Assembly: GCF_024810105.1 (NCBI RefSeq)
Contig: NZ_JANUDX010000001.1
Span: forward strand, 434,001 to 498,000
DNA length: 64,000 nt
Source: Stenotrophomonas sp. BIGb0135
GTDB lineage: Bacteria > Pseudomonadota > Gammaproteobacteria > Xanthomonadales > Xanthomonadaceae
Direction of reading: 5' to 3'
This document shows positions 19,782 through 22,604 of the stretch, piece by piece (within the stretch, counting starts at the first letter, position 1; each line of letters opens with the position of its first letter). A model generated the notes under the pieces. It was not told the DNA's origin, did not search any database, and was given only the letters and a program-made list of their open reading frames with translations. Position numbers and translations under genes: made by a program.

Positions 19782-22604
19782 TCAGCGCACCACGCCGCCG
19801 CTCAGCACGATCGGCGTGCTCTGCAGCGGCTCGCCGGCCGCGCGCGAGAGCTGCAGTTCGTAACGGCCCTCGGCGATCTTCCACTGCTTGTCGGCAGTGT
19901 CGAAGCTGGCCAGCGTCTTCGGCTCGGCCTCGATGCGGATCCGGCGCGATTCGCCCGGCTGCAGCATCACCTTCTGGAAGCCCACCAGGCGGATCGGCGT
20001 GGCGCTGCCATCGGGCAGCTTCAGGTACAGCTGCGCCACGTCCGCACCGGCCACCTTGCCGGTATTGCGGATGTCCACCGTGGCGACCAGGCGCTGGCCC
20101 TGCGACACCGCGCTGAGGTTGTCGTAGCTGAACTGCGTGTACGACAGGCCGTGGCCGAACGCGAACTGCGGGGCCAGGCCCTTGGCGGCGAACCACTTGT
20201 AGCCGACGTTGGCGCCTTCGATGGTGTAGTCGATGGTGTCGTCCGGCTTGTGCTTGGGATTGAAGCCCAGGCCGTTCACTTCCGGGCGCGGCAGCTGGCT
20301 GGCATCCACCGGCCAGGTCACCGGCAGGCGACCGGACGGATTGACCTTGCCGGTGAGCAGCGCGGCGATGCCTTCGCCACCGCGGATGCCCGGGTACCAC
20401 GCCTGCAGCACCGCCGGTACCTGCTGCAGCCACGGCAGCTCGACCGGGCCGTTGGTTTCCAGCACCACCACCGTCTTCGGATTGGCCTTGGCCACCCCGG
20501 CGATCAGCGCGTCCTGGTTGTCGGGCAGCTTCATGTGCGGCAGGTCGACCGACTCGGCCGACCACTGCGTGGCGAACACGATGGCCACATCGGCCGCGGC
20601 CGCCGCGCGCGCCGCAGCGGCGACATCACGACCATCCACGTAGTCGATGCGCGCGTCGGGACGCTCGGCGCGCAGCGCCTCCAGCGGCGAGGACGGGTGG
20701 AAGATCACCGGGCCCGGCCAGGTGGTCGGCAGCACGCCCGGCACCGCGTTGGTGCCCTTGGCGGTCCAGCCCACCATCGACGAACCACCGCCACCGATCA
20801 CGCCCTTGTCGGCATGCCCGCCGATGACCACGATGCGCTTGACCTCTGCACCCAGCGGCAGCACGTCGTTGGCATTGCGCAGCAGCACGCTGCCCTCTTC
20901 CACGGTGCGCTGGGCGGCGGCGAAGCCGGCAGCATCGTCGATCGGCTGGTGCTGCGGCGGCAGGTCGAAATTGCCGTTGGCGAACATCGCGCGCAGGATC
21001 CGGCGGACCATGTCATCCAGGCGCGCGCGCGGCACCACGCCACCGTTGACGGCCAGGCGCAGCGGTTCATCGAAGAACACCGCCTTGTCGAACACCTCGC
21101 CGGCCGACTGCTGGTCCAGGCCGGCCAGCGCCGCCTTGGAACCGCTGTGCACGCCGCCCCAATCGGACATCACGAAACCGGGGAACTTCCATTCCTGCTT
21201 GAGCACCTGGTTCATCAGGTAATCGTGTTCGCAGCCGTAGGTGCCGTTGATGCGGTTGTAGGAGCACATCACCGAGCCGGGCTTGCCGATGTCCAGCGCG
21301 ATCTCGAAGGCCAGCAGGTCCGATTCACGCATGGCCTGCTCGCCGATCTCGGCACTGTGGAAATTGCGCGAGGTTTCCATGTCGTTGAGCGCGAAGTGCT
21401 TCATCGTCGAAATGACGTGCTGGCTCTGCACGCCACGGATCGACTCGCCCACCAGGCGACCGGCCAGCAGGGGATCTTCGCCGGCGTATTCGAAGTTGCG
21501 GCCATTGCGCGGGTCGCGCTGCAGGTTGACGCTGCCGGCCAGCAGGATGTTGAAGCGCTGCTGCCAGGCCTCGCGGCCCATGGTGGCGCCACCGGCGAAG
21601 GCCACTTCCGGGTTCCAGCTCGAGGCGGTGGACGGGCCCGACGGCATCGCCGTGGCGTGGTCGCCCTTGCGGATGCCGCCCGGGTTGGTCACGCCCACGC
21701 CGGCATCGGCCGACTGCTGCGACGGGATGCCCAGGCGCGCCACGCCCGGCACGAAACCGGCCGAACCGACCGCGCCTTCCGGCAACGGCCCGCCATCCTT
21801 GCCCAGCCCGAAGTAGCTGTGCAGCATCTGGAATTTCTCATCGTCGGTCATCTTCGCCACGATCAGGCGGGCGCGTGCATCGGCGTTGAGCGCGGTATCC
21901 ATCCACGGCGTATCGCCACCGACCGGGGCGGCGTAACCGAGGGTCACCAGGGTGCCCTTGAGCGCGGTCTTGCCGGCATCCAGGCGCAGCTTGACCGCGG
22001 TGCTGGAGGAGGACTGGAACCCCTGGGAATAGGTGGCATCGCCACTGGCCTGGAAGCCGGCGGCCTGGGCGCTGGCCGCATCGGCCCCGAGCAGCACGGC
22101 CGGGGCGCCCACGCGCGAGGCGTCGACCAGTGCCTTCAGGCCGCTGCTGTCCTCGGCGCTGCGGGTGTACAGCGCCACCACGTGGCGGCCGTCGTTCAAA
22201 CGCAGGTAATCCAGGCCCGGTGCTTCGACGCCCGAGGTCGCTTCCACCGGCAGGCGCGCGATCACGATGCTGCCGCGACGTTCGGCCGAGGCCGGATCGG
22301 CGCTGATGAAACGATAGGTGTAGCCCAGCTGGTCGGCCAGCGCCTCGAGCGGATCCGGCACGTGGCTGGTGTCGGCGGTATCGGCGGGGCGGTGCACGTT
22401 GCCGACGGTCAACGCATCCACGTTGAGTGCCTGCAGCTGGTCGGCCACCTGCTGGATATCCAGGTGCGCGGGCGCCTGGTCCAGGCGGAGCACGGTGAAG
22501 GCATCGCCGCTGTCGGCAACCTTGGGCGAGGACGCCCAGGCCGAAGCGGTGAGCGAGAGCGTGATGGCGGCCGTCAGGGCCAGTGGCTTTGAAATCGTTT
22601 TCAT
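19782..22604 (-). CDS. Secreted glycoside hydrolase family 3 beta-glycosidase with extra N-terminal domain
   Basis: This 940-residue protein has a signal peptide (MKTISKPLALTAAITLSLTA). Residues about 30-220 are not GH3 but follow the strand/helix order of an endonuclease/exonuclease/phosphatase domain with its catalytic residues lost. From about residue 235 (DARARLIVAKMTDDEKFQML) the GH3 N-terminal barrel begins, with LAGSVNLQRDPRNGRNFEYA, STMKHFALNDMETSRN, and the nucleophile Asp in GFVMSDWGGVHS (about Asp481). The alpha/beta sandwich (VIGGHADKGVIGGGGSSMVG) and a fibronectin-III-like end (VDIRNTGKVAGADVAQLYLK) follow. It probably trims beta-linked oligosaccharides in the periplasm or outside the cell. 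The ribosome-binding site is weak. Confidence 0.9.
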   Translation of the reverse strand: MKTISKPLALTAAITLSLTASAWASSPKVADSGDAFTVLRLDQAPAHLDIQQVADQLQALNVDALTVGNVHRPADTADTSHVPDPLEALADQLGYTYRFISADPASAERRGSIVIARLPVEATSGVEAPGLDYLRLNDGRHVVALYTRSAEDSSGLKALVDASRVGAPAVLLGADAASAQAAGFQASGDATYSQGFQSSSSTAVKLRLDAGKTALKGTLVTLGYAAPVGGDTPWMDTALNADARARLIVAKMTDDEKFQMLHSYFGLGKDGGPLPEGAVGSAGFVPGVARLGIPSQQSADAGVGVTNPGGIRKGDHATAMPSGPSTASSWNPEVAFAGGATMGREAWQQRFNILLAGSVNLQRDPRNGRNFEYAGEDPLLAGRLVGESIRGVQSQHVISTMKHFALNDMETSRNFHSAEIGEQAMRESDLLAFEIALDIGKPGSVMCSYNRINGTYGCEHDYLMNQVLKQEWKFPGFVMSDWGGVHSGSKAALAGLDQQSAGEVFDKAVFFDEPLRLAVNGGVVPRARLDDMVRRILRAMFANGNFDLPPQHQPIDDAAGFAAAQRTVEEGSVLLRNANDVLPLGAEVKRIVVIGGHADKGVIGGGGSSMVGWTAKGTNAVPGVLPTTWPGPVIFHPSSPLEALRAERPDARIDYVDGRDVAAAARAAAAADVAIVFATQWSAESVDLPHMKLPDNQDALIAGVAKANPKTVVVLETNGPVELPWLQQVPAVLQAWYPGIRGGEGIAALLTGKVNPSGRLPVTWPVDASQLPRPEVNGLGFNPKHKPDDTIDYTIEGANVGYKWFAAKGLAPQFAFGHGLSYTQFSYDNLSAVSQGQRLVATVDIRNTGKVAGADVAQLYLKLPDGSATPIRLVGFQKVMLQPGESRRIRIEAEPKTLASFDTADKQWKIAEGRYELQLSRAAGEPLQSTPIVLSGGVVR

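Follow-up and report, generated by a model that had tools for sequence, protein, structure and literature searches.

A degenerate EEP-related domain is conserved at the N-terminus of a GH3 protein of Stenotrophomonas and has intact counterparts in related genera

The endonuclease/exonuclease/phosphatase (EEP) superfamily (PF03372) includes TDP2, the neutral and bacterial sphingomyelinases, nocturnin and exonuclease III, and the beta-glucosidases of glycoside hydrolase family 3 (GH3) employ an Asp as nucleophile and a Glu as acid/base. A protein that joins relatives of both families is encoded in the DNA analysed here, a stretch of 64,000 nucleotides (the window) corresponding to positions 434,001 to 498,000 of contig NZ_JANUDX010000001.1 of Stenotrophomonas sp. 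BIGb0135. This GH3 protein of 940 residues, whose gene is closed by a stop codon at 19782-19784, carries between a putative signal peptide and the GH3 core an N-terminal domain that the original prediction, made from the letters alone, had described as a degenerate EEP fold. The reading favoured by the analysis, with a probability of roughly 0.8, is that of an originally bifunctional phosphodiesterase-glucosidase in which, in Stenotrophomonas, the EEP half has turned into a non-catalytic module that is conserved.

The N-terminal domain shares descent with the EEP proteins. In particular, when an alignment of 38 such domains (A2) was compared with 13 intact EEPs by hhalign, the two were matched with a probability of 98.4% (E 8.3e-15, 138 columns), 20 column-shuffled controls and a reversed one reaching at most 1.6%. 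A single-sequence search with residues 1-235, covering 101 genomes (its own and those of relatives), gave matches in 49 of them. The strong ones are the same domain in front of GH3 in the same genus, and the window genome's own standalone EEP gene (G000:C1:830438, itself assigned to PF03372 at 7.3e-24) was matched with an E-value of 3.0e-4. Similar weak EEP-like matches are found in many members of the genus, the best of them (E 5.9e-7) lying in a frame of putative EEP identity. In the other direction, an intact fused EEP used as a single phmmer query gives 18.7-31.0 bits against many of the Stenotrophomonas domains, and a profile of 14 rows (A1) reaches EEP genes of the family, with E-values down to 3.2e-13 for one genome (L092, a confirmed EEP).

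Structure prediction and fold comparison, as well as the profile-profile match, bear out the proposal of a degenerate EEP-like fold. Specifically, an AlphaFold2 model computed on the A2 alignment (predicted local distance difference test, pLDDT, 80.5; predicted TM-score, pTM, 0.79) predicts a compact alpha/beta sandwich, and the window domain would accordingly be expected to adopt the EEP fold. All 50 rows listed by Foldseek for this model are EEP proteins, the best being 3teb (E 1.0e-8, TM-score 0.60 by query, root-mean-square deviation, rmsd, 6.0). With VIA-align, a Z of 14.9 to human neutral sphingomyelinase is obtained over 181 residues at 3.1 A, followed by values of 12.6-14.8 to TDP2 (14.8), a bacterial sphingomyelinase, nocturnin and other EEP proteins; the titles of its 50 rows are those of EEP proteins, except for 3l1w ('functionally unknown') and one chain of a complex naming DNase.

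Judged by its residues, the domain is probably catalytically dead. The four EEP catalytic positions, taken as canonical from recall and mapped on intact relatives, are those of the Asn, the Glu, the His and the Asp of GDFN, and the canonical residue is present at them in 0 of 38 rows. In other words, the proposed loss of the catalytic Asn, Glu, His and Asp is seen as a replacement at all four positions in 38/38 rows. The positions of the IDH and SDH motifs are gapped or changed in all nine rows tabulated, and the Arg of LLTR is retained in eight of the nine. The domain has also shrunk: measured between one common starting point and the Trp of the linker it has about 200 residues, compared with about 255 in an intact fused domain (L088). 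Among the roughly 50 residues lost are the helix that follows the THL motif and a portion of the final third. As none of the four catalytic positions is kept, the domain is filed as an EEP-derived pseudoenzyme and not as a functional EEP member.

Intact counterparts of this domain are found within the same bacterial family. When the full-length fusion (P0002) was used as query on 395 genomes of the family, 97 matched at 1e-100, and a full EEP was found at the same place in the orthologous GH3s of three other genera (g33, probably Xanthomonas, g70 and g45). The survey of GH3 homologues that had been proposed thus finds the extension at the same place, intact in these three genera. Intact fusions are present in 10 genomes of g33, 3 of g70 and 1 of g45. 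They resemble the window protein in their arrangement of EEP, linker ending in PW (AW in g45), GH3 and fibronectin type III (Fn3)-like domain; the g33 and g70 fusions share with it the signal peptide, and the GH3 of the g33 query is 73% identical to that of the window. Unlike the window domain, the fused EEP of all 14 loci keeps the eight checked residues (N, E, H, D, N, D, D and H).

Within g33, several states of the same gene coexist. Among its 19 matching genomes, 10 have the intact fused EEP, 2 a full-length inactivated one and 7 the GH3 alone, with no EEP between the signal peptide and the GH3 core. The inactivated pair has lost the His of THL, the Asn of GDFN and two further positions, and has kept the first Asn and the Asp of GDF. 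The PF03372 score decreases along this series, from 90.3 and 83.9 bits in the two intact fusions scanned (E 2e-25 and 1.7e-23) to 43.2 bits in the one inactivated protein scanned and no match in the window. In the loci inspected of g44, g55, g69, g28 and g56, the GH3 is without EEP. In a class-wide search of 369 genomes, an EEP match at E <= 1e-8 was obtained in 16, four of them in the window's family; six loci were fetched from the 12 others and none shows a GH3 match there. In an order-wide search of 398 genomes, the other families align, among the matches listed, from about residue 244 of the fusion query and show no intact EEP, in a search that left five frames of more than 1000 residues outside inspection and in which a fused domain as diverged as that of Stenotrophomonas would not appear. 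Separately, three loci from other families of the class (L152, L153 and L154) have an EEP at the C-terminal end of frames of 731-744 residues, with no GH3 match there.

The mechanism proposed to connect these forms would start from a secreted fusion of an EEP metal-dependent phosphodiesterase/phosphatase with a GH3 exo-glucosidase behind it. Its two halves probably attacked different bonds, two in all, in the same phosphate-containing glycoconjugate, the EEP half cutting a phosphoester of the molecule that is the substrate of the GH3. This two-enzyme form would survive in the three related genera, and in the window lineage the EEP half would have lost its metal and catalytic residues together with about 50 residues, keeping the fold, so that the dead module may now support the GH3 or provide a binding surface. 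We infer along these lines that the dead domain descends from the intact fusion, that the GH3 and the intact EEP are active and share a substrate, and that the dead module either supports the GH3 or binds a ligand.

A number of results, concerning detection, the active site, selection, the trees and the full-length model, count against the EEP assignment of the domain or against a bifunctional ancestor with a conserved dead module, and they are considered here with the alternatives on which they bear. As for detection, the window domain gives no EEP match in Pfam or NCBIfam at E <= 10, PF03372 at E <= 1 is reached by just 2 of the 38 family members (best 0.018), the domain profile run against the sequences of solved structures finds no EEP and returns four weak, unrelated matches (E 0.0065-0.66), and the Foldseek TM-scores are moderate (0.60 at best), with rmsd values mostly of 5-8 A. 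The EEP profile search suggested at the outset therefore gave no PF03372 match for the window domain, and equally no match of a hidden Markov model to another family. No Pfam family is assigned to the first 290 residues of the protein, and routine annotation misses the domain because Pfam does not detect it. As for a different family at the N-terminus, no significant Pfam or NCBIfam match speaks for one; the four weak matches to solved structures (two DppD entries, a glucanase and a release factor) are short and partial and lack support from the fold search.

As for the active site, the position of the first Asn is acidic (E or D) in 37 of the 38 rows, and it is because of this change that the loss of all metal binding is something we infer. 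The same substitution would fit a domain that is still an enzyme with a remodelled active site, in which new residues replace the old ones, and several polar positions invariant in the 38 rows (for example D59, D66, R73, D113, H116 and R139, in A2 numbering) could be read in this way. Such an enzyme is very improbable, since all four checked positions are changed, the Glu and His positions hold different letters in different orthologues, and the IDH and SDH positions are altered as described above.

As for selection, the ratio of nonsynonymous to synonymous substitutions (dN/dS), obtained by simple pairwise counting (NG86) without a tree model on 37 sequences of the genus (661 of 666 pairs within the dS limits), has a median of 0.47 in the domain against 0.26 in the GH3 and is higher in the domain in 624 of the 661 pairs. 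Constraint on the domain is therefore weaker than on the GH3, and this would suit a relic in passive decay, that is, a domain with catalysis lost and deletion pending, which acts as a mere spacer after the signal peptide. The seven g33 genomes that have the GH3 without EEP, from which it follows that the EEP domain is dispensable in g33, and the two genomes that display a full-length, partly inactivated stage speak in the same sense. Against passive decay, the domain dN/dS is below 1 in 661/661 pairs and under 0.5 in each of the 18 independent close pairs (0.02-0.49, with 0.01-0.12 in the GH3); the window GH3 protein is matched at 1e-100 in 70 of 91 genomes of the genus and all 70 matches span the N-terminal domain, a single main copy (G844) having an in-frame stop; the predicted fold is compact, and 46 columns, five of them in the linker, are invariant in the 38 rows. 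A relic is thus unlikely. For comparison, the intact fused EEP of g33 has a median dN/dS of 0.29 (0.17-0.57) and its GH3 of 0.17 in 45 pairs, and in the inactivated g33 pair the values are 0.43 for the EEP and 0.16 for the GH3. The dead domain of Stenotrophomonas is under purifying selection, which in close pairs is of the same order as that on the intact fused EEP, and this constraint is better accounted for by a working non-catalytic module than by a free relic. Besides the main copies, a further GH3 match, about 60% identical to the GH3 of the window and short of the N-terminal domain, occurs in two genomes of the genus (G039:C1:207556-209700 and G026:C1:2400350-2401921, the latter being a partial match).

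As for the trees, that of the GH3 proteins is a quick one with modest backbone support. Seven of its rows are longer than the GH3 core, their envelope including part of the N-terminal domain, and sparse columns were removed. The proteins with shrunken domain and the inactivated ones form two separate groups, each with a support of 100, and the tree requires four changes in the presence or absence of the EEP. In the tree of EEP domains, the fused domains of g33 and g70 group together (93/92); the Stenotrophomonas domain is attached by a branch 2.58 changes per column in length, its place among the EEPs not being settled, and the fused domain of g45 is likewise not placed. A tree that keeps all fused domains together in one clade passes without rejection (p of the approximately unbiased test, p-AU, 0.105; 0.084 without the Stenotrophomonas domains), and such a clade is not shown either. 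One row of this tree labelled as standalone intact (g37s2_L149S) derives from G004, of the window's genus, and groups with decayed standalone copies; the label is not to be trusted. This leaves room for a Stenotrophomonas domain acquired separately from an EEP gene that was already degenerating, for example of the standalone type found downstream of the GH3 in relatives. Besides the loose placement and the four changes, a separate acquisition would account for the degenerate standalone EEPs in the same genome and beside the GH3 in relatives, and for the 27-30% identity of the domain to its intact fused counterpart, a value that the nearest standalone types roughly match. It appears rather unlikely in view of the location of the domain, which orthologous GH3s share (behind the signal peptide and ahead of the GH3 core), and of a single clade that the test does not reject. 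The simplest account, although not a proven one, is that the fusion arose once and that decay and losses came after it. In the GH3 tree, the protein of L041 (JAHREJ010000008.1), titled Bacillus subtilis SK7B5, falls among those of Stenotrophomonas, and this assembly is probably mislabelled or contaminated.

Finally, the full-length AlphaFold-type model (pLDDT 49.4, with long GH3 stretches below 50) has no readable interface and is too poor to separate a support role from a binding surface, and neither an activity nor a substrate came to light for any of the members.

Further indications on the function of the fusion come from the gene neighbourhood. An M14 carboxypeptidase gene has a standalone intact EEP downstream of it in g43, g37, g55 and g42 (at a distance of about 1.1 kb in the last of these), and in g44 the M14 gene is followed by the GH3. 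The order is M14, GH3, EEP in g69 and in three scanned non-fusion loci of g33, and M14, EEP-GH3, second EEP in the six loci of g33 and g70 that were scanned and have an intact fusion, with a POT peptide transporter beside the cluster in many of these loci where the stretch reached far enough. No M14 gene was seen in the stretches of L090 and L138 (inactivated g33), L132 (the g45 fusion, where a second EEP gene was not seen either) and L091 (an EEP of g58), and the M14 neighbourhood is hence not universal. This neighbourhood of POT, M14, EEP and GH3 genes suggests a shared extracellular substrate. Across the family, an arrangement of POT transporter and M14, then EEP, GH3, GH3 plus EEP, or the EEP-GH3 fusion, is kept wholly or partly in L088, L089, L129, L131, L134, L136, L137, L139, L140 and L142-L144.

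A tentative possibility, to be regarded with some doubt, is that EEP-GH3 represents a secreted enzyme with two functions that has so far escaped recognition and that acts on phosphorylated glycoconjugates, encoded in a small cluster with a peptide transporter, an M14 carboxypeptidase and an EEP, and that its phosphodiesterase half is in Stenotrophomonas a substrate-recognising pseudoenzyme module which still positions the glucosidase. Among more specific substrates, plant inositol phosphorylceramides, to which the sphingomyelinase-like fold would lead, were not adopted, no title among the literature matches listed supporting them; phosphorylated mannan (from the Bt3783 match) and DNA were considered and not adopted.

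Other EEP genes of these genomes have degenerated as well. The second EEP gene of g33, downstream of the GH3 (L088 2026-2943, minus strand; L139, L131 and L138), is partly degenerate, with GGF for GDF and Arg for the His of THL in all four copies tabulated, and going by these residues it is a separate case of EEP inactivation beside a GH3. The window genome encodes a second standalone secreted EEP-like protein (L096 749-1591, plus strand, at about 817.75-818.59 kb of G000:C1; also in L009), which has lost most of the checked catalytic residues and scores 35.1 bits with PF03372, above the cut-off. Its gene adjoins a POT gene and it groups with the second EEP copies; the window GH3 gene is located elsewhere in the genome.

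The features of the window protein are collected in Table 1. The start codon is best placed at the ATG at 22604 (MKTISKPLALT...), an MKT start at this point being common to the orthologues of the genus. Every motif quoted in the original prediction is present at its place in the minus-strand frame; the domain does lie in the interval given there, 22000-22520, and extends about 70 bases past its lower end. On sequence grounds, the GH3 half is probably an active secreted exo-glucosidase: the Asp of SDW and the Glu of SAES align with those of the solved GH3 enzymes 4i3g, 8j9f and 7ms2 and are invariant in the 38 rows. Seven GH3 models of NCBIfam were matched and none reached its own cut-off, so that no substrate is assigned to the GH3.

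Table 1. Position of the GH3 protein of the window and of its domains and candidate residues.
Feature	Position	Strand	Basis
GH3 protein with N-terminal EEP-like domain	19785..22604	-	whole-length matches in 70/91 genomes of the genus
Putative signal peptide, residues 1-25	22530..22604	-	sequence by eye (cleavage site too); MKT start of orthologues
Degenerate, shortened domain of predicted EEP fold, residues 33 to about 225	21930..22508	-	profile-profile comparison, predicted structure
Asp42, position of EEP metal-site Asn	22479..22481	-	38 rows: E 33, D 4, A 1
Asn69, position of EEP metal-binding Glu	22398..22400	-	38 rows: Q 20, N 14, D 3, H 1
Ser149, position of THL-motif His	22158..22160	-	38 rows: A 32, T 3, S 2, G 1; alignment gapped just behind
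Ala174, position of GDFN Asp	22083..22085	-	38 rows: A 32, T 3, S 3
GH3 N-terminal catalytic domain PF00933	20991..21734	-	Pfam, 102.7 bits (cut-off 27)
GH3 nucleophile candidate Asp481 (SDW)	21162..21164	-	aligned to solved GH3 enzymes
GH3 C-terminal domain PF01915	20139..20888	-	Pfam, 185.1 bits (cut-off 31)
GH3 acid/base candidate Glu684	20553..20555	-	aligned to solved GH3 enzymes
Fibronectin type III-like domain PF14310	19845..20042	-	Pfam

In general terms, one orthologous gene is found within a single bacterial family with intact, inactivated, shrunken and absent versions of its EEP domain, and as these four stages stand side by side, the steps from an enzyme to a conserved dead module become directly testable. 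The intact version points to an enzyme with two activities, for which the gene neighbourhood offers a handle on the substrate. EEP and GH3 are known families; neither their joining in one protein nor the decay series appears to have been described, as far as the literature search reaches, no description of an EEP-GH3 protein being found among the matches listed in the open full-text literature, a source outside which most subscription journals lie.

With the members of the EEP superfamily, the window domain shares the predicted sandwich and the order of segments, and it differs from them by the lost catalytic residues, by its shorter length (with respect to L088) and by falling below Pfam detection. 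With GH3 beta-glucosidases such as PDB 4i3g, the window protein shares the GH3 architecture, the Asp of SDW and the Glu before VD (E 1.1e-106), and the additional N-terminal EEP-like domain belongs to the window protein alone. A further comparison is that with the mannosyl-6-phosphatase Bt3783 of Bacteroides thetaiotaomicron (PDB 4c1r), a protein of EEP fold with a Z of 13.9 to the window domain, whose title names a phosphorylated sugar. By analogy, this title suggests that an EEP fold may act on sugar phosphates, which would be a lead for the intact fused EEP; the window domain, in contrast to Bt3783, is without the catalytic residues.

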